From: Acidobacteriota bacterium
GTDB lineage: Bacteria > Acidobacteriota > UBA6911
DNA length: 64,000 nucleotides
Direction: 5' to 3'
NCBI GenBank assembly: GCA_031271905.1
Contig: JAISUT010000004.1
Span: 1 to 64,000 of the forward strand
Positions 12,974-56,374 of this stretch are shown here, piece after piece (the stretch's first letter is position 1; each line of letters starts with the position of its first letter). Made by a program: the position numbers and the translations under genes. The notes beneath the pieces are model-generated. The model saw only the letters and a program-made list of their open reading frames with translations, was not told the origin of the DNA and ran no database searches.

Positions 12974-13687
12974 TCATTTCGCGCCGAAGAAGTGGGCGCA
13001 CAGGTCGCGAACCTCCAGCGTCTCCCGGTAATGGAACGCCTCCCCCTTGCGCTTGCCGATCATCGTGCCGTAAAAAGAATGGACGCCTTCGACGTGCGAG
13101 AGGAAGTCGGGGCGGCTCACGACCGTCTCCAACCCCCCGCCCCCGGGGTCGTACAGTTGCGAACGGTGCGCCGCGATGGCGGCGTCGCGCACGTCGCCGT
13201 AGTCGGACACGTCCACCACGAAGCTCGGCGCCATGCCGAGGGGGAGCCTGAAATAAAGCACGACCGGTGGACGGTGCCGCTCCCGGCCGGTGACGATCTT
13301 CGCCAGTCCCGCATGATGCACCGCCTCCGTGACCAAGCGGCTGGTGTGGACATGGTCGGGGTGCGCATCCTCCCAGTAGTGCGTCATGACGATCCGGGGG
13401 CGGTACCGGCGCAGGACTTTGATCAGCTTGAGCCGCGCGGCGGGGGTCACGGCGACGCCGCCGTCGGGGAGGCGCAGGTTCCCACGGACCTTCGCCTTCA
13501 AGATCGCGGCGGCGGCGGCGGCCTCTTTGGCGCGGACGGCGGGCGTCCCCCTCGTGCCAAGCTCCCCGCGCGTCGCGTCCACGATGCCGGTCGCGTAACC
13601 CAGCGCCGCCATCTTCGCCAGCGTCCCGCCCGCGAAAAGCTCCACGTCGTCCGGATGCGCGCCGACGGCAAGGATGTCAAGTAGCAT
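12974..13687 (-). CDS. bshB1: BshB1-type bacillithiol deacetylase (PIG-L/LmbE family)
   Basis: BshB1 removes the acetyl group from GlcNAc-malate, the second step of bacillithiol synthesis. The 237-residue protein has the zinc-binding start LAVGAHPDDVEL, the ARGELGTRGTPAVRAKEAAAAAAIL-like segment with the conserved RGExGTRGT pattern, and the later metal histidine in HYWEDAHPDHVHTSRLV. This fits the BshB1 branch of the LmbE family. It is the last gene of a minus-strand run and begins within a few bases of the stop of the BshC-like gene. The glycosyltransferase BshA is not in the window; a canonical BshC is at 52926. Confidence 0.88.
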   Translation of the reverse strand: MLLDILAVGAHPDDVELFAGGTLAKMAALGYATGIVDATRGELGTRGTPAVRAKEAAAAAAILKAKVRGNLRLPDGGVAVTPAARLKLIKVLRRYRPRIVMTHYWEDAHPDHVHTSRLVTEAVHHAGLAKIVTGRERHRPPVVLYFRLPLGMAPSFVVDVSDYGDVRDAAIAAHRSQLYDPGGGGLETVVSRPDFLSHVEGVHSFYGTMIGKRKGEAFHYRETLEVRDLCAHFFGAK

Positions 13688-13689
13688 GG

Positions 13690-14949
13690 TCAATCCATCC
13701 TGATCAGTTGATGCCCGAACGTCCCGACGTCCAGGCCTTCATAGAGCGTCTGGACGCCGGACGCGCCATGACGCAAAGGAACTTGCAAAGAACCCAGCAC
13801 CTCGTCCTGCCACCGCCCCTGCGGCGCCAGGAAATCGCACGCCTTGCGCAACCGCGCCTCCGCGACCCGCTCCCTCCGCGCCAGCGCACCGTCCACATGC
13901 CGCCGCAACTTCCCGAGCTGGTAGAGGATCCTCTCGCCACGCGACCGGCGCGCTTTGGCAAAGCGCCGGTCGCGCGCATCCAGCGCCACAAGCCCGGCAA
14001 GCGCGTCGCCGACGTCCTCCTCCAGCCCTCGCAACCTGGCGGGGACGTCGCCGCGCAACTCCCCCCGAACCCGCCCCATGACGGCGTCCAGCCCTTCGCG
14101 CAGGTGGCCGGGGTCGAGCGCATAGCGGCGCAACGTGGCTTCCACCCTGGCGCTCGACATCGTCACCCGCGCACGCGGCCAAGGGATCGGCACCAGGATG
14201 CCGTCGTGCGCCCGATGGCGGGGGGCATCCTGCGGCTCGGTGACAACGACTGCGACCGGGAGCGCGCGCCTTCGCTCCAAGGCTCGTCCCAAAGGCGAGG
14301 GCGGGGGGGCTTCCCCGCCTCGTCCGCCATCCCGCGCGCCCCCCGCCTCGGCGGCGTCCCCGACGTCGAACCCTTCGACGACCACCCCCCACGGACGCAA
14401 CAGGCGCCCCAGCCAGCGGACGTTGGCGTCGACGAAGGCCGTCCCCGGGGAGAATGCTTCTTTGAGGGAGGCTAGGGCATCGTCCCCGCCGGCGGCGTCG
14501 GGAGGGAAAAGCCCCTCGATCTCGGCAAGGAGGGCATCCGTCCACCCACCGCAGACCCCCTCCCCCAGGGCGTCGCCCGGCGCGAGCCGGTGCAAGCCGT
14601 AACGCCGATCCACCAGATGCGTCTCAAGCGGGGACTGGGCGTCGGCGGGGCGCACCCGGCAGACGGGGGTTGCGTCCACTCCGCGCTCCCTGAGCTCGGC
14701 GCAGACCTTGGCTGCGGTGAGGCAACGCAACAGTTGGGCGAGCGCCCCTCCGAACAGGCCGGCGCGACACTCGGCGAGCACCGCGACGCTCCCTTGCGGC
14801 AACGCCTGCGGCGTCGCGGGCGGCGGCCAGCGCCGGAGCGCGTCCGCCAAAGCCGCCAAGGTCGGCGCAACCGGTGCGGCTTGCCGCCCAAGCGCCGCGC
14901 CGTCGCCGTCAAAGAACTGGTTCGCCCCCGTCATGTCGTCCATCGGCAT
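13690..14949 (-). CDS. divergent BshC-like protein, possibly inactive or of new function
   Basis: This 419-residue protein is visibly a remote relative of BshC, the cysteine-adding enzyme of bacillithiol synthesis. Residues 54-97 (VAVLAECRAGLFGGALAQLL and following) align with the canonical VLTGQQTGIFGGPLYTVYKALTA region, and the end (LYQLGKLRRHVDGALARRE, then FLAPQGRWQDEVLG and RHGASGVQTLYE) aligns with the BshC coiled-coil and C-terminus. But TGQQ is replaced by AECR, and the EDHD motif after the Rossmann strand by PADA. The protein is about 150 residues shorter than usual, and it is Ala/Arg/Pro-rich. It sits between tsaE and bshB1. It may be a structural partner, or act on another amine. 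Confidence 0.7.
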   Translation of the reverse strand: MPMDDMTGANQFFDGDGAALGRQAAPVAPTLAALADALRRWPPPATPQALPQGSVAVLAECRAGLFGGALAQLLRCLTAAKVCAELRERGVDATPVCRVRPADAQSPLETHLVDRRYGLHRLAPGDALGEGVCGGWTDALLAEIEGLFPPDAAGGDDALASLKEAFSPGTAFVDANVRWLGRLLRPWGVVVEGFDVGDAAEAGGARDGGRGGEAPPPSPLGRALERRRALPVAVVVTEPQDAPRHRAHDGILVPIPWPRARVTMSSARVEATLRRYALDPGHLREGLDAVMGRVRGELRGDVPARLRGLEEDVGDALAGLVALDARDRRFAKARRSRGERILYQLGKLRRHVDGALARRERVAEARLRKACDFLAPQGRWQDEVLGSLQVPLRHGASGVQTLYEGLDVGTFGHQLIRMD

Positions 14950-15027: not shown

Positions 15028-15501
15028 TCATCCAAGGATGCGCAGCGTCCGCGACTCCCCCCCGGCGTCTTCGATCTCCACCTCCACCGCGTCGGGGAAG
15101 GCGTCCCCCAGCCGCTCGCTCCATTCCACGACGGTCACCCCTTCCCTGCCGATGAAATCGTCGATGCCGATGGAATAGAGGTCGCGCGCCCCTTCGAGCC
15201 GGTACAGATCCACATGGTAGATGGGGCAACGCCCCCGGTAGACGTTGACCAAGGTGAACGAAGGGCTGCACACGCGCCCCGCGTCCTCAAGCCCCAACCC
15301 CTCGGCGATGCCCCGCGCGAGGGTCGTCTTCCCCATGCCGAGGGAGCCGCGCAACAGGACGACGCCGGGGACGGGCAAAGTCCGGGCGATCTCGATCCCT
15401 ATGCGGCGCGTCTCCTCCGGCGAGGAGGAGCGCAACTCCCGCAACGTCTTTTCATTTTGACGCACTGTTTTTTTATGCGACATCGCGCCGCCCACTTTCA
15501 T
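15028..15501 (-). CDS. tsaE: tRNA t6A biosynthesis ATPase TsaE
   Basis: TsaE is the ATPase that drives the TsaBD complex in making N6-threonylcarbamoyladenosine at tRNA position 37. This 157-residue protein has the P-loop LRGSLGMGKTTLARGIAEGLG, the PSFTLVNVY segment, the YHVDLYRLEGARDLYSIGIDDF block and VVEWSERLGDAFP. The first ATG (MKVGGAMSHKK) is used; GGGAGTCGGGG lies upstream. It follows kamA by 55 bases within the minus-strand run, an odd place for it, though tsaE is often mixed into other operons. Confidence 0.95.
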   Translation of the reverse strand: MKVGGAMSHKKTVRQNEKTLRELRSSSPEETRRIGIEIARTLPVPGVVLLRGSLGMGKTTLARGIAEGLGLEDAGRVCSPSFTLVNVYRGRCPIYHVDLYRLEGARDLYSIGIDDFIGREGVTVVEWSERLGDAFPDAVEVEIEDAGGESRTLRILG

Positions 15502-16796: not shown

Positions 16797-17354
16797 TCAG
16801 GTCAGCCGTCTGATGAATATCAACCTGTCGTCCCCGACATCGTAGAAATCCCGTATGTGCGACACCTCTTGAAAACCCAGCCGTTGATAGAATGCGATCG
16901 TCCCCCGGTAAGATTCCTTGGCGGAGGTCTCGGCGACTAAAATCCGCCCCCCCTCCAGCCGCGCCCGCCCTTGGACATGCTCCATCAGCAGACGCCCCAG
17001 GCCGCGTCGGCGCGCCGCCGGGTGCGCCGCTATCCAGTAGAGGTCGAACGTCCCCCTGGTCAACGGCACCGGCCCCCAGCAGGCGTAGGCGGCGACGGTC
17101 GCCGCACCGTCGCCCGCCGCCCCGTCCACGACCGCGAAGCGGTAGTCCCGTTGCGCCTCGTCGCCAAGATAGATGTCCACCAGCTCCATGGCGCATTCCC
17201 GCTCCGCCGCGTTGAAATTCTCCACCGCCGCGACCAGCGCGGCGAGGGCGGGGCGATCCTCGCGACGCAACGCCCTCACCGGACGCCCCAGGCCGGCCAA
17301 GCCATCCGCCCCCGCATCACGCGCGGGGATTCCGCCCCTGTCCTCAGAACGCAT
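16797..17354 (-). CDS. GNAT-family N-acetyltransferase linked to aminomutase and ATP-grasp genes
   Basis: A protein of 185 residues has the GNAT fold: beta strand 4 FDLYWIAAHPAARRRGLGRLLMEHV contains the acetyl-CoA-binding R/Q-x-x-G-x-G/A loop (RRRGLG), and the end FYQRLGFQEVSHIRDFYDVGDDRLIFIRRL is typical of the family. It overlaps the end of the upstream ATP-grasp gene by 11 bases, so it belongs to the operon. By position it may acetylate beta-lysine or its conjugate, in the way AblB does, but it is shorter than AblB and not obviously of that subfamily. The start MRSEDRGG is taken because upstream in-frame codons overlap the ligase. Confidence 0.85.
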   Translation of the reverse strand: MRSEDRGGIPARDAGADGLAGLGRPVRALRREDRPALAALVAAVENFNAAERECAMELVDIYLGDEAQRDYRFAVVDGAAGDGAATVAAYACWGPVPLTRGTFDLYWIAAHPAARRRGLGRLLMEHVQGRARLEGGRILVAETSAKESYRGTIAFYQRLGFQEVSHIRDFYDVGDDRLIFIRRLT

Positions 17355-18435
17355 ACAAGACGTCTTCCCCCGACAGGCGTCCGCGCGCCATCGCGGCGCG
17401 GCAGATGCCCAAGACGACATCCTGGTAGGTGCGCCCCGAGGCGCGCACCGCCCGGGCGAAACCCGCCTCCGGCGCAAGGTCCGGGTTCGGGTTCACCTCC
17501 AAGACGTAGGGGGAGCCCTCCGCATCCATGCGCATGTCGACGCGCCCGTAGTCGCGGCAACCGATCACCTGGTAGCTTTGAATTGCAATCTCCTTTATCA
17601 ACCCCTCCTGCCTCCGGGACAGCGGCGCGGGGCAGACCGGCGTCGTCGAGCGGTACATGGGGCTCCCTTCATCCCATTTGGCGCGATAGCTCACGATCTT
17701 GGGCTCCTCCTCCGGCATTCCCGAAAAGTCGATCTCCGCTATCGCCAACACCTCCGGCGCCTCGTCCCCGGGGCCCGTGCCGCCGATGACCGATACGTTG
17801 AACTCCCTGCCGTCGATGTACTCCTCCACCAGAGCCTCTTGCCGGTAGACCTCGTGGACGTAGCCCACCTGCCTCCGCACCTCCTCGGGACGGCGGCAGA
17901 CGGAGTCGCTGTTGACCCCCAGGCTCGCGTCCTCGCGCACCGGCTTCACGATCAGGGGGAGGCGCAACGCCCCCCCTGAAGAAGAGAGGGCGTCCTCGTC
18001 GCCCGGCGCGCACAGGACTCCGCGCGGCACGGGCACCCCCGCCGCGTCCAGCGCCAGTTTCGCGTGGTATTTTCGCAAGGCGAGGCCGAGGGAGAAGGAG
18101 TCCGACCCGGTGAACGGGATCTGCATCAATTCCAAAAGCCCCGCCGCAGCCATCTCCATCCCGCAGTCGCCGTCGATCTCCTCCAAGAGGTTGAACACGA
18201 ACTTCGGCGCCAGCCCCTTCAACTCACCGATCAAATCCCCCAAGACGCCCCCTTTGGCGGGGGCTTCCGAGGCGCCCACGGCGATGACGCACGGCGAATA
18301 ACCGGCATGACGCAAGCTCTCTGCGATCGCGCCGACCTCGGTGCGGGCGTTGCAGGAGGCGTAGATGACCTCGCGGCTGCCCGCCTTCTCCGTCTCCGTC
18401 GCCGCATTGTGCAAGATGGCGCAGTCGCAAGTCAT
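17344..18435 (-). CDS. D-Ala-D-Ala-ligase-like ATP-grasp enzyme, second of a pair
   Basis: This 363-residue protein has an N-terminal preATP-grasp domain (ARTEVGAIAESLRHAGY) and a D-Ala-D-Ala-ligase-type ATP-grasp core: LPLIVKPVREDASLGV for the phosphate loop, ALVEEYIDGREFNVSVIGG, and the metal-binding RVDMRMDAEGSPYVLEVNPNPDLAP. Such enzymes join a carboxylate to an amine with ATP. It is not a standard Ddl, since it lies away from cell-wall genes and has a partner of the same family just upstream, with a four-base overlap (ATGA). It probably makes an amide bond in the same small molecule as the aminomutase product. Substrates are unknown. Confidence 0.85.
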   Translation of the reverse strand: MTCDCAILHNAATETEKAGSREVIYASCNARTEVGAIAESLRHAGYSPCVIAVGASEAPAKGGVLGDLIGELKGLAPKFVFNLLEEIDGDCGMEMAAAGLLELMQIPFTGSDSFSLGLALRKYHAKLALDAAGVPVPRGVLCAPGDEDALSSSGGALRLPLIVKPVREDASLGVNSDSVCRRPEEVRRQVGYVHEVYRQEALVEEYIDGREFNVSVIGGTGPGDEAPEVLAIAEIDFSGMPEEEPKIVSYRAKWDEGSPMYRSTTPVCPAPLSRRQEGLIKEIAIQSYQVIGCRDYGRVDMRMDAEGSPYVLEVNPNPDLAPEAGFARAVRASGRTYQDVVLGICRAAMARGRLSGEDVLYAF

Positions 18436-19481
18436 GGCAACACCCCGCAACGCGCGCAGGCGATGTCCAGGACCTCGTTGATCAACTGGTCGTAGCCCAT
18501 CCCCGCCGCGCGCGCCGCCTTCGGGAAGCAGGAGTTGTCCTCGGGCTTGGGCAGGACGCCCGGCAACGGGTTGAGCTCCAGGATGTGCGGCCGCCCCCCG
18601 GCGTCCAGGCGCACGTCGATGCGGCACCAGTCCCGGCATCGCAGGACGCGATAGGCGTCCAGGCACAGCTTCTCGATCTCCGCCTGCAACCGCGCGTCCA
18701 GACGGGCGGGGCAATCGAAGATGCGCAACGGGTCGGAGCTTTGATCCCAGACCCATTTCGCCTCGAAGGAATAGATCGGGTTGACATCCCCGGGCAGGGC
18801 GTCGAAAAGGATCTCCACGACTGGAAGCGCCCGCGCCCCGGCGCCGTTGCCGAGGATGGCGACTGTGAACTCCCGCCCCGGCAGGAACTCCTCCACCAGC
18901 GCCGGCTCGCCGTAGCTCTCCTGCAACCACGCCACCCGCTGCACCAACTCCCCATGCGTCCGCACCAGCGAGTCGTTGTAGATGCCCTTGCTCGACCCCT
19001 CGTGCAACGGCTTGACGACGAGCGGGTAGCGCAACCCCGCAACGCCGTCCGCCGGCGATTCGCAGGGGCGATCTGGGTCGGAGATGACGCAAAAACGCGC
19101 CGTGGGCAGACCGTGGTAGGCGAGGATTTCCTTGGTTCGGGACTTGTCCAGGCAGATGTTCAAGGTCAAAGGGTCGCTGGCGGAGTAAGGGATGCCGAAA
19201 TGTTCCAGCATGGAGGGGATGTACCCTTCCCGGCATGGCCCCGCGGAACCTTCGGCGATGTTGAATACGATGTCCGGGCGGGTCTCCCGCAACAGGTTCC
19301 AAGCGTCCCCCGCAGCATCGATCAAGACGACATCATGCCGTTTTTCGAGGGCGGACTGGATGGCGGCGATGGTCTCGGGCGTGTCCCATTCCGCCTGGGC
19401 GTCACCCCTGAAACCACCCGGAGGCTCCAACACCTCCCCCGGATTTTCCCGCCTCATATTGTAAGTTAGACCAACTTTCAT
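18432..19481 (-). CDS. D-Ala-D-Ala-ligase-like ATP-grasp enzyme, first of a pair
   Basis: A protein of 349 residues, first in the operon. It has an N-terminal domain with a long acidic loop (GDAQAEWDTPETIAAIQSALE), then the ATP-grasp core YPLVVKPLHEGSSKGI, PALVEEFLPGREFTVAIL and the metal site IDVRLDAGGRPHILELNPLPGVLP. The DIVFNIAEGSAGPCREGYIPSMLE segment matches the second domain of Ddl-like ligases. The two ligases share the same plan but differ a good deal, so they probably act on different acceptors. A strong promoter lies just upstream. Confidence 0.87.
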   Translation of the reverse strand: MKVGLTYNMRRENPGEVLEPPGGFRGDAQAEWDTPETIAAIQSALEKRHDVVLIDAAGDAWNLLRETRPDIVFNIAEGSAGPCREGYIPSMLEHFGIPYSASDPLTLNICLDKSRTKEILAYHGLPTARFCVISDPDRPCESPADGVAGLRYPLVVKPLHEGSSKGIYNDSLVRTHGELVQRVAWLQESYGEPALVEEFLPGREFTVAILGNGAGARALPVVEILFDALPGDVNPIYSFEAKWVWDQSSDPLRIFDCPARLDARLQAEIEKLCLDAYRVLRCRDWCRIDVRLDAGGRPHILELNPLPGVLPKPEDNSCFPKAARAAGMGYDQLINEVLDIACARCGVLP

Positions 19482-52925: not shown

Positions 52926-54653
52926 TCAGCGCGGGAGCGACCGCAACTCGACCAGCCTGTGGGTGAACCCCTCGACGGAGACGGCGGCGCGGAGGGCGTC
53001 CATGACGGCGGGGCCGTGTTTCGCGAGGAAGTGGAAGATCGTCAACTCCCTCTCCTGGAGGTTGCCTTCGGGGAGCAGGTGGTTGGCGATGGTCGCGGCG
53101 TCCGCCGCCGCGTCGCCCGCGCCTCCGCCCGTCTCCATGCGCACGACGCGCGCTTTCAGGTTGCGGACGTTGTGCAACGCCTTCCGGCGCACGGCGTCCA
53201 CCACGCCTTCGAGCCCGCCCTCGATTTCTCCCGCGTCCGTCTGAATCCCCCGCAGCCCCGCGTCCAAGCGTCCGTACAGGCGCTCCAGCCGCGAGGACAT
53301 GCCGCCCCCGCCCGCCCGCAGCAACGCCTTCTCCACCAGCGCCGCCTCGCCGGCGAAAACGTCCGTGAAGCCGACCCCCGTCCGCCCCATGGCGGCGGCG
53401 ACCTCCGGCTCGACCAGGGTGAAGGCGTCGCGCGGCCAGACCACGGGCATGGCGCGCCCGAATATCTTGTAGAGCGCTTCGACCTGCGCGAAGTAGGCGA
53501 CCTCCGCCGCCCCGCCCGCATAGGCGACGGTGGGCAGGAGCGCGTCCTGCGCGATGGGGCGCAACAGCACGTTAGGGCTGAACGCCTCGGGCCGCCGCTC
53601 CGCGAGTTCCAGCAGCTCCCCTTCCGAGAACTCCCCGCCGCCGTTCTTCAACCGGAACGCTGGCGCCGCGCCATCGGCGGACTCCGGCCCGGACGTCTGT
53701 TCGAGGGCGTGCCGCCTGCCGTCCACGGTCAGGAACAGGGTGGTGGCCCCATCCAACACCTTCACCTGCGAGTGGAAGCCCGCCGCACGCAACTCCCCGT
53801 CGCGACGGGTCAAGGCGGCGCGGATGCGCCCCGCTTCGGCGACGGCGCGGCGAAAGACGGGGGTCAGCAGCCGCTTGAGCCCGGGGTCGGCGGGGTCGAG
53901 GACGACCAGCCCCGTCCCCGCGAACAGCCAGTGCAACGTCCGCGCGAAGGCTTCGGCGAAGCTGGCGCCGGGCGCATAAGCCCCTTCCAGCGCCGCGACG
54001 GCCTCGGCCTTCCATGCGGCGCCCTGCGGGGAGTCGCCCCAGCATGCGGCGAACGCCCGCGTCGCCGCGCCGACGGTCTCGGTGAAACGGAGCGAGCCGA
54101 CCGCCTTGGCGGCGACCTCGGCTTCCGGGAACAGCCCCGCGCCGAAATCGACGCCGCGAGCCGCGACCATGGCGGGCGCGGAGGGCGCGGCAGGCGCAGG
54201 GGGCCGAACCTCCATGACGGCGCACTTGGTCGCCTCTTTATAGTCGTGATCCTCCGTCTCCATCCAGAAGACCGGCACCGCGCTCACGCCGCGCCGGCGG
54301 AGCTCCACCGCCAGCTCCACGGCGGTCAACGCCTTGTAGACGGTGTAGAGAGGCCCGCCGAAGATCCCCGTCTGCTGGCCGGTGAGGACGGCGACGCCGC
54401 CGGGCTTTCCAAGGTCGTCGATGCCCCGGAAGACCTTGGCGTCCGCGCCGAACGACTCGTTCTGGCGGCGCAGGGCGGCGGCGACCTCGCGGCGCGGGAA
54501 CGGCAGGGGGGCGGTCGCACGCGCCACCGTCTCGAGCGCGTCCAACGCCGGGGGCGCGGGGTAGAAGCGCATGGCGGCGGGGTCGCGTTCCAGATAGCGC
54601 AGGAAGAGCGCGGATTGGCGGGGCAGGTCTTTGAACGGGATGTCTGTCGGCAT
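52926..54653 (-). CDS. bshC: putative cysteine-adding enzyme BshC (canonical copy)
   Basis: BshC is held to join cysteine to GlcN-malate in the last step of bacillithiol synthesis. The 575-residue protein has the usual length and all main marks: VLTGQQTGIFGGPLYTVYKALTA (89-111), the AVPVFWMETEDHDYKE motif with EDHD at 134-137, a central Rossmann-type domain, and the coiled-coil C-terminal section ending in LLPEGNLQERELTIFHFLAKHGP. The second, divergent homologue at 13690 lacks these motifs. The start ATG (MPTDIPFK) has only a weak ribosome site; an upstream in-frame start would add 19 residues. It is 39 kb from bshB1 and stands with manC on the minus strand. Confidence 0.9.
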   Translation of the reverse strand: MPTDIPFKDLPRQSALFLRYLERDPAAMRFYPAPPALDALETVARATAPLPFPRREVAAALRRQNESFGADAKVFRGIDDLGKPGGVAVLTGQQTGIFGGPLYTVYKALTAVELAVELRRRGVSAVPVFWMETEDHDYKEATKCAVMEVRPPAPAAPSAPAMVAARGVDFGAGLFPEAEVAAKAVGSLRFTETVGAATRAFAACWGDSPQGAAWKAEAVAALEGAYAPGASFAEAFARTLHWLFAGTGLVVLDPADPGLKRLLTPVFRRAVAEAGRIRAALTRRDGELRAAGFHSQVKVLDGATTLFLTVDGRRHALEQTSGPESADGAAPAFRLKNGGGEFSEGELLELAERRPEAFSPNVLLRPIAQDALLPTVAYAGGAAEVAYFAQVEALYKIFGRAMPVVWPRDAFTLVEPEVAAAMGRTGVGFTDVFAGEAALVEKALLRAGGGGMSSRLERLYGRLDAGLRGIQTDAGEIEGGLEGVVDAVRRKALHNVRNLKARVVRMETGGGAGDAAADAATIANHLLPEGNLQERELTIFHFLAKHGPAVMDALRAAVSVEGFTHRLVELRSLPR

Positions 54654-54789
54654 GGGAGATGGGGCGGGTGCGCCGTCCGACCACGCCGCCCCTGCGCACC
54701 GGTCGTCCATATCGGGCGGGGGGGAGGCGGAGGCGGCCGTCGGCCCGCCAGTCCTTTTCTATGCTTTCTATCGCCTCTGTCTCTTTGCT

Positions 54790-55956
54790 TTACTTCGCCT
54801 CTTTGCTTCGCCGTGGCGGCTCTTGCCGCTCCGGCGGCCACGGTTCTTCAGGCAAGGCGGCGACCAGCTTCTTCAAATCTGCCGCCTTGTCGCGGGAGCA
54901 GACGAGCACCTTGCCGTAGGCTTGGACGATGACCAGGTCCGACACGCCGTAGGTGGCGATCATGCCGGACTGCACCCCCGCCTGCGCCGATCGCCCCGAC
55001 TGGCAGTAGATGACGCAGTCGCGGGTGTCGAGCGCCGTCACCGCCCCTTGGACGATGTTGCCTGCGGCGTCCGGCGCGAGCGCGCGTCCGAGCGACGCCC
55101 AGCTCCCGATGTCGTCCCAGCCGAAGCGCGCCGGCACGAGACGCAACCCTTCCGCCTTCTCCATGATGCCGAAGTCGATGGAGATGCGCGGCAGCGCCGA
55201 GAAGATCGCGGCGACTTCCTCCCGGACCGCAGCCAACGCCGTTCCGGCTATGAGCGGGCGCAGGCGATCCAGCCCTGCGGCCGTCTCCGGCATGAAGCGT
55301 GCGAACAAGTCCAGCAGCGTCCGGTTGCGCCAAAGGAACATGCCGCTGTTCCAATAATAGCCGCCGTCTGCCACGTAGCGCGCCGCCGTGGCGGCGTCCG
55401 GTTTCTCGACGAAGCGGGTGACGGGCCATGCCGCCGCGCCGTCTCCGGCACCGTCCGCACGGGCGACGCCGGGGGGCTTTTCGGCGAGGATGTAGCCATA
55501 GCCGGTCTCCGGGCGCGTGGGGGCGATGCCGAAGACCACGCCGCTGGCGCCTTCCAAGTTGTCCAGGCCCGTCTGGACGGTCTCGCGATACGCCGCGCCG
55601 TCGGCGATGTAATGGTCGGCGGGCAACGCCAGCATCACGGCGTCCCCGTCGCGCCGTTCCAAGTGCAACGCGCAGAAGCCCACGCAAGCCGAGGTGTCGC
55701 GCCCCACCGGCTCCACCAGGAAGTTCCCCTCCGGCAACTCCGGGAGCTGCCGCCGCGCGATGTCCAGGTGCTCCGCGCCGATGGAGACGCATATGCGCTC
55801 AGGAGGAACCAGCGGCTGGATGCGCGCCACCGTATCCTGCAACAACGAGGTGCCGCCGAGCAACGGGATGAACGGCTTGGGGAACTTGCGGGCGCTGAGC
55901 GGCCAGAAGCGCTCCCCCCGCCCTCCGGCCATGATCACGGCGTACAATGTCGGCAT
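54790..55956 (-). CDS. manC: mannose-1-phosphate guanylyltransferase
   Basis: This 388-residue enzyme makes GDP-mannose. It has the nucleotidyltransferase start AVIMAGGRGERFWPLSARKFPKPF, the sugar-binding segments PADHYIADGAAYR and GYGYILAEK, FVEKPDAATAARYVADGGYYWNSGMFLWR, and DFGIMEKAEGLRLVPARFGWDDIGSW. There is no C-terminal isomerase domain, so it is monofunctional. GDP-mannose probably supplies the surface polysaccharide encoded in the island beyond the tRNA. GGGGAAG precedes the ATG by five bases; bshC starts 137 bases further on. Confidence 0.92.
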   Translation of the reverse strand: MPTLYAVIMAGGRGERFWPLSARKFPKPFIPLLGGTSLLQDTVARIQPLVPPERICVSIGAEHLDIARRQLPELPEGNFLVEPVGRDTSACVGFCALHLERRDGDAVMLALPADHYIADGAAYRETVQTGLDNLEGASGVVFGIAPTRPETGYGYILAEKPPGVARADGAGDGAAAWPVTRFVEKPDAATAARYVADGGYYWNSGMFLWRNRTLLDLFARFMPETAAGLDRLRPLIAGTALAAVREEVAAIFSALPRISIDFGIMEKAEGLRLVPARFGWDDIGSWASLGRALAPDAAGNIVQGAVTALDTRDCVIYCQSGRSAQAGVQSGMIATYGVSDLVIVQAYGKVLVCSRDKAADLKKLVAALPEEPWPPERQEPPRRSKEAK

Positions 55957-56374
55957 CGTCTTCCCCACGGTTTCGTGCGCGTTTCAAGCGACAGAGAGAA
56001 CATCGGCGAACAAAAAGGGGATTTTAACGGAGGCGTCGGCGCTTGTCTATGGTTTCCGGGACGGCGGCTTCGCGACGGCGGCGGCGCGAAGCCCTCCCCC
56101 GACCTGGTCTCACTCGCCATCTCTTCCGTCCCGTCCGTACCGCTCCCATCGGCCTGCGCGCCACATCCTTCATCTCGCGCTCCCCGGGGGCTTGATATGA
56201 AGGATGGGCGGACGCGCCCGCCTTGCACGCCATGCGTTGCCATTTTGGGGCTGGATATTTTGGGCTGATATTTTGAAAATCCAGCTTCACAACGGAAGCG
56301 GAGCGTGCTAATCTCTTGTCCGTTGTTTTCCGGTTTGATCGCGCCACGCCGGAAGGCAACCCCTGCGACAACGT
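55957..56374 (+). other. gap before tRNA-Lys with a possible promoter
   Basis: No gene is seen in this gap. A TTCACA (56286-56291) and TAATCT (56309-56314) pair spaced by 17 bases could drive the tRNA gene, which starts 61 bases later. GATATTTTG appears twice just before it. The rest has no clear feature. Confidence 0.4.

Follow-up and report, generated by a model that had tools for sequence, protein, structure and literature searches.

Introduction

What is a second BshC-like protein doing beside bshB1, when it lacks the motifs of the family and shares its genome with an intact BshC? The question is raised by the window, a stretch of 64,000 nucleotides from an Acidobacteriota bacterium (assembly GCA_031271905.1, contig JAISUT010000004.1, positions 1 to 64,000). 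BshC (YllA) is the cysteine-adding enzyme of bacillithiol synthesis; the intact copy in the window is called BshC1 below and the short copy BshC2. A literature search returned no title on a second or inactive BshC, most subscription journals being outside its reach. The copies were compared across the host family, defined here as 15 genomes of Acidobacteriota including that of the window (G000), and with BshC proteins from outside it.

The Locus and Its Genes

On the minus strand of the window, the genes follow in the order tsaE, bshC2, bshB1 (Table 1). The probable ATG of bshB1, at 13687, lies 2 nt past the bshC2 stop, as judged from the sequence; an alternative TTG start, picked by the ORF program, overlaps that stop. 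The canonical bshC1, an ORF of 594 aa, is found 39 kb away. BshC2 is 175 aa shorter than this ORF; most of the other frames, of BshC1 and of BshC from outside the host family, span ~540–600 aa. A manC match is also found near bshC1 in seven relatives (G004, G005, G006, G007, G008, G012, and G014). The profile search located a BshA gene elsewhere in the window's genome, and BshA scores above its cut-off in G000 and 13 of the 14 relatives. Even without counting BshC2, the window's genome therefore has BshA, BshB1, and an intact BshC.

Table 1. Features of the window, with the evidence for each
Feature	Position	Strand	Basis
bshC2, BshC-like presumed pseudoenzyme, 419 aa	13690..14949	minus	ORF with ATG start, profile matches
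TGQQ site in bshC2, reads AECR, residues 59–62	14764..14775	minus	alignment columns
EDHD site in bshC2, reads ADAQ, residues 102–105	14635..14646	minus	alignment columns
C-terminal coiled-coil part of bshC2, residues 264–419, most constrained	13693..14160	minus	CC_BshC match 312–417, TIGR03998 251–416, rate ratio 1.23
bshB1, PIG-L family deacetylase, directly downstream of bshC2	12974..13687	minus	PF02585, E 4.9e-28
tsaE, directly upstream of bshC2, conserved neighbor	15028..15501	minus	PF02367, E 2.3e-35; synteny
bshC1, canonical BshC with TGQQ and EDHD	52926..54710	minus	PF10079, E 1.1e-78; PF24850, E 4e-16
manC-like nucleotidyltransferase, next gene upstream of bshC1	54790..55968	minus	

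Elsewhere on the minus strand of the window, at 17344–19481, there are two adjoining ATP-grasp ligase-like frames, one supported by a Dala_Dala_lig_C match (18432–19481) and the other recognized by eye. Next to them lie a gene resembling lysine-2,3-aminomutase and one of the GNAT type.

Homology and Fold

The similarity of BshC2 to BshC exceeds chance, and sequence homology extends over its whole length. The NCBIfam profile for BshC, TIGR03998, matches only residues 251–416 of the window BshC2 (E 9.4e-13). Its score of 47.9 bits is far below the curated cut-off of 265.8 bits, which BshC1 exceeds (383.6 over all frame pieces). The Pfam domain CC_BshC (PF24850) matches at E 1.2e-5 with 25.6 bits, for a cut-off of 27. 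PF10079, the N-terminal Rossmann-like BshC domain carried by BshC1, gave no match in the window BshC2 up to E 1. The N-terminal part of BshC2 is nevertheless 44% identical to the window BshC1 over query residues 52–103 (E 3.9e-6), and a profile built from 12 host-family BshC2 matches the B. subtilis BshC (PDB 4wbd) at E 1.7e-26 over columns 21–441 of 442. The sequence-only reading had described a second BshC-like protein adjoining bshB1, shorter than a canonical copy 39 kb off and altered in key residues. The ORF, the TIGR03998 and 4wbd profile matches, and the alignment with BshC1 bear this out and establish BshC2 as a paralogue.

The predicted fold is BshC-like, with a Rossmann core and a long coiled coil, as far as AlphaFold models built from five-row alignments, by a program that may have had 4wbd in its training, can tell. 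The window BshC2 was modelled at pLDDT 71.2 and pTM 0.71, with a long helix at residues 328–374, and the BshC2 of a relative (L085) at pLDDT 73.3 and pTM 0.75. For both models, 4wbd was the only Foldseek match in the PDB at E <0.001. Superposed on it by VIA-align, the window model scored Z 22.8 (378 residues, 10.3 Å; next chain 11.0) and the L085 model Z 31.1 (436 residues, 9.3 Å; next chain 12.8). A model without a BshC-like fold, which had been named as a refuting outcome, was thus not obtained in either case. Given the large rmsd, the placement of the core relative to the coiled coil is not settled by these models. A weak resemblance to MshC and cysteinyl-tRNA synthetases (CysRS) was seen at the level of the fold: MshC reaches Z 7.0–7.6 with the window model, and CysRS Z 7.5–8.0 with the window model and 8.0–8.3 with that of L085. 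These values are far below those of 4wbd and in a range common for the tool.

Residues Lost and Kept

The residue alignment comprised 12 of 14 BshC2 rows, 12 of 13 BshC1 rows, and 16 of 17 rows of BshC from outside the host family. The motif names TGQQ and EDHD were taken over from the earlier reading; their conservation was measured here. TGQQ is kept in all 12 BshC1 rows spanning the site, and the second motif reads [ED]DHD in BshC1; outside the host family, GQQ is kept and some proteins carry DSD instead of DHD. In the window BshC2, TGQQ has become AECR and TEDHD has become PADAQ, and neither motif is kept in any of the 14 BshC2 rows, the nearest approach being TGDP in G011. The columns considered are near-invariant across the BshC1 and outside BshC rows, apart from Gln344, and they split into lost and kept ones in BshC2. 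Among the 12 aligned BshC2, both Gln of TGQQ are gone from every copy and each of the two Asp of EDHD survives in one. Glu159, Gln315, Arg333, Tyr406, and Gln409 are kept in none, Phe148 in one, and the residues of RP..QD (Arg384, Pro385, Gln388, and Asp389) in one to three. The lost columns probably represent the active site, to judge by the motif names and their invariance. BshC2 also differs from BshC (YllA) in lacking E..Y..Q and in its inner segment (BshC1 residues ~300–380), which is absent or short in most copies.

Gly68, Pro258, Gln344, Pro376, Gln381, and His413 are found in 12/12 BshC2, and Thr263 and Glu382 in 11/12; the terminal His shared with BshC is present in all 13 filled BshC2 rows. 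The split is imperfect, as some C-terminal columns have changed too: Gly395 is kept in 1/12 (Ser in 10/12), Arg383 in 5/12, Lys340 in 3/12 (mostly replaced by Arg), and Asp328 in 2/12. BshC2 shares with BshC the homology along its length, the C-terminal coiled coil, the terminal His, and a modelled fold common over 378–436 aligned residues. Residues of its own include Cys76 (11/14) and Cys371 (10/12 filled rows), both absent from 13 BshC1, together with Arg268 and Tyr276 (12/12 each). No compact group of newly invariant polar residues was seen in the BshC2 alignment.

Retention and Gene Order in the Host Family

An open BshC2 frame beside bshB1 and/or tsaE was found in 14 of the 15 host-family genomes, that is, in the window's genome and 13 of 14 relatives; it was not found in G009, whose assembly is 81% complete. 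All 11 host-family genomes at least 90% complete carry BshC1 together with BshC2. The other four vary: G013 has both, G009 only BshC1, and G002 and G010 only BshC2. Ten relatives share the full order tsaE–bshC2–bshB1 with the window; a contig end removes one bshC2 neighbor in G002, G010, and G014. The interval between tsaE and bshC2 widens to ~1.0–1.1 kb in G011 and G012 and to 0.4 kb in G007. Of 12 relatives, seven have 3 nt between bshC2 and the first start codon of bshB1, two have a 4-nt overlap, and three have a gap of 62–175 nt. BshC2 adjoins BshC1 in none of the loci read.

Frames not cut by contig ends range from 348 to 498 aa, and the genome search reports no stop codon except in the G002 match, where it precedes the frame adopted here. 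Sister genomes were also inspected for the absence or decay expected of a dying copy. bshC2 is open and in place in them, with one large in-frame loss: the 348-aa BshC2 of G010 (L119:147-1193) lacks the coiled coil in frame; it retains the WPR segment and the terminal HQLI, which a few residues follow. This genome, 84% complete, has BshA and BshB1, and BshC1 was not found in its assembly.

In 5 of 12 genomes of the class outside the host family (G015, G018, G022, G025, and G028), an intact full-length bshC lies directly upstream of bshB1, in G015 also with tsaE upstream; in G026, bshB1 follows 1.5 kb downstream of bshC. The other six show no bshB1 in the stretch read around bshC, several of them being on short contigs. 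BshC2 therefore occupies the place that a real bshC holds in several relatives.

Phylogeny and Origin

The tree was built from 40 of 44 rows, omitting the truncated or short G002_C2, G010_C2, G031_o, and G013_C1; the rate comparisons and AU tests additionally omit G013_C2, which has a very long branch. All BshC1 group in a single clade, as do all BshC2, each with 100/100 support, and the two branch largely alike. In both, G012 goes with G014, G004, G005, and G006 group together near G000, and G011 stands apart; they differ, for example, in G003, which joins G001 in the BshC1 tree and the G000 group in the BshC2 tree. Both copies were most likely already present in the ancestor of the host family. 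As to what preceded this, neither a joint clade of BshC1 and BshC2 (p 0.296) nor a grouping of BshC2 with the clade containing the bshB1-adjacent BshC (p 0.198) was rejected by AU tests. A Trp (Trp257 in BshC2, Trp425 in BshC1) is common to 11/12 BshC2 and 12/12 BshC1 and is found in 0/16 outside proteins. It leans toward a duplication within the family or a shared constraint, and is not decisive.

Evolutionary Rate and Selection

The comparison relied on here used a fixed topology, the same 11 species, shared columns, and 30 column bootstraps. The BshC2/BshC1 tree-length ratio was 2.02 (1.69–2.73) for the Rossmann core, 4.25 (2.5–8.95; 35 columns) for the mid segment, and 1.23 (1.07–1.48) for the coiled coil. 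An earlier free-tree version gave median ratios of 2.98, 7.39, and 1.02, respectively. By simple counting in three close pairs (G004, G005, and G006 only; BshC2 start codons uncertain), dN/dS was 0.34–0.40 over the last 160 codons of BshC2 and 0.55–1.07 over the rest, with 1.07 in the closest pair, the latter values being affected by the overlap of the early part of these BshC2 frames with the tsaE frame. Whole genes gave 0.48–0.73 for BshC2, 0.40–0.46 for BshC1, 0.16–0.27 for bshB1, and 0.45–0.53 for tsaE, so that tsaE scores only a little lower than BshC2 as a whole. Taken together, the C-terminal dN/dS and the uneven rates suggest that selection acts on BshC2, mainly toward its C-terminus. 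The copy thus appears to be maintained by selection, with a loss that is selective by region.

A reciprocal loss in the coiled coil of BshC1, complemented by BshC2, was also considered on account of Gln344 (BshC2 numbering), which is present in 12/12 BshC2, 14/16 outside BshC, and 0/12 BshC1. It was rejected: this is one column chosen post hoc, and the region-wide comparison of coiled coil with core (1.59 in BshC1 vs 1.29 outside the host family, with overlapping ranges) shows no clear extra change.

Function

Enzyme/pseudoenzyme paralogue pairs are known in which one copy carries the catalytic motifs and the other the oligomerization domain. BshC1 and BshC2 resemble such pairs in this split, with a partnership that in the present case we infer. 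The favored explanation, to which we give an even chance, is that BshC2 is a pseudoenzyme retained on account of its coiled coil, and that it most likely pairs with BshC1 as a non-catalytic subunit. The BshC copy at the bshB1-adjacent place would have lost its cysteine-ligation chemistry, which BshC1 would have kept elsewhere, and the gene would be retained since its coiled coil and what is left of its Rossmann scaffold still serve a function. BshC2 would be co-produced with BshB1, which makes the substrate of BshC1, and would most likely pair with BshC1 via the coiled coil, thereby activating, stabilizing, or regulating the cysteine-adding step. The loss of the motifs, a dimerization domain evolving at near the pace of the active enzyme, the presence of BshC1 in every near-complete genome, and the coupling to bshB1 in most all fit a pseudo-subunit of bacillithiol synthesis. 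Judging by the residues lost, BshC2 is probably catalytically inactive; that it binds BshC1 is suggested by the retention of the domain. Pairing with BshC1 is favored because the coiled coil is the constrained part and, according to the review PMC4360819, is what dimerizes B. subtilis BshC. The same review describes an exposed active site in BshC that might accommodate a protein, substrate, or cofactor yet to be found, and as of 2015 reports BshC activity as never demonstrated in vitro. The earlier proposal of a pseudoenzyme partner is supported by motifs gone in every family copy read and by a constrained coiled coil, BshC1 being the putative partner. The G010 copy tells against the coiled-coil reading: either the coiled coil is dispensable there, or the copy is decaying or misassembled. 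Further points against the favored explanation are the C-terminal columns that changed, the dN/dS of up to 1.07 ahead of the last 160 codons, the distance of BshC2 from BshC1 in every locus read, and the BshC1 coiled coil, which shows no clear sign of co-adaptation. A bolder form of the favored explanation, which we consider unlikely, is an asymmetric BshC1–BshC2 heterodimer that would add cysteine to GlcN-malate, with the active site on BshC1 and BshC2 as a pseudo-subunit, either obligate or regulatory, that might sense redox state via cysteines particular to the family (Cys76 and Cys371 of BshC2 and a Cys pair of most BshC1).

The main rival to pairing with BshC1 is binding to BshB1. BshC2 may be a pseudoenzyme that scaffolds or stabilizes BshB1, or one that forms homodimers with a bound ligand, for instance a nucleotide, in either case independently of BshC1; we regard this as somewhat unlikely. 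The tight spacing of bshC2 and bshB1 (2 nt in the window, 3 nt in 7/12, and a 4-nt overlap in 2/12 relatives) and the separation of BshC2 from BshC1 in all loci read speak for it, as does, for the ligand, the ADP in a second pocket of B. subtilis BshC (PMC4360819). The gap of 62–175 nt in 3/12 relatives weakens the case, and since an intact bshC also precedes bshB1 directly in 5/12 outside genomes, the adjacency may be inherited and is a weak sign of BshB1 binding. Alternatively, BshC2 could be a relic decaying slowly after BshC1 took over, its frame staying open mainly for bshB1 translation. The fast core, the dN/dS of the closest pair, which reaches 1.07 when the C-terminus is set aside, the spread of frame lengths (348 to 498 aa), and the coiled coil lost in G010 agree with such a course. 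Retention of open frames in 14 genomes across the whole host family does not, and the C-terminal dN/dS and near-BshC1 rate there point to selection at the protein level. A dying copy was rejected as the main reading for these reasons and is kept, given G010, as an improbable rival. An enzyme with changed chemistry or substrate, using another amino donor or nucleophile, was the other possibility raised by the sequence-only reading. BshC2 does have conserved residues of its own (Cys76, Cys371, Arg268, and Tyr276), but its rate of evolution exceeds that of BshC1 2.0-fold in the core and 4.3-fold in the mid segment, the inner segment is absent or short in most copies, and no new polar set stands out. 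This proposal thus finds little support and is very improbable.

A BshC that lacks the catalytic motifs and yet appears to be kept in nature offers a concrete candidate for a partner of BshC, and a natural separation of the catalytic from the coiled-coil function. If the heterodimer were true, co-expression of BshC2 might allow the reconstitution of BshC activity. For annotation, a short BshC match beside bshB1 should not be read as a ligase.

BshC2 Outside the Host Family and Further Observations

The BshC2 search matched 111 of 297 genomes of the phylum at E 1e-25. Among the matches listed, frames outside the host family are at least 525 aa long, except those of G031 (459) and G034 (488), both reaching a contig end. 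A search of 38 genomes of the class added shorter frames in G023 (345 and 424, with one TAG, on a 4.8-kb contig), G031:C710 (95), and G035:C227 (423). The last was rejected as a short BshC2: RP..QD and E..Y..Q are both intact, and the frame stops where its contig of 3252 bases ends, which makes it a truncated ordinary BshC. Among the matches listed from these 297 and 38 genomes, a short BshC2 was recognized only within the host family. G035, from another family of the class and with 6% contamination listed, carries this truncated second BshC (L153) in addition to a full-length one (L154, G035:C416).

Some minor matches are recorded here as well. Within the host family, G013 has a weak BshC2 N-terminal match (L053, G013:C53:4706-4888; 36%, E 1.6e-4); the frame around it is of 103 aa and contains one TAG. 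In G125 (C1:101563-102180) and G149 (C1:101275-102219), BshC C-terminal matches lie within frames of 2047 and 2121 aa, which may represent fusions or merely long open frames.

In BshC1 of the host family, a Cys pair occupies columns 577 and 672 of the alignment, close to the two ends of the coiled coil; in the window BshC1 these columns correspond to residues 451 and 545. Both Cys are present in 11 of 13 genomes and both are absent in the window's BshC1; G013 has only the first. Column 577 is Leu in 14/14 BshC2 and Cys in 0/17 outside BshC, and column 672 is Cys in 2/17 of the latter. The pair could be a disulfide or metal site.
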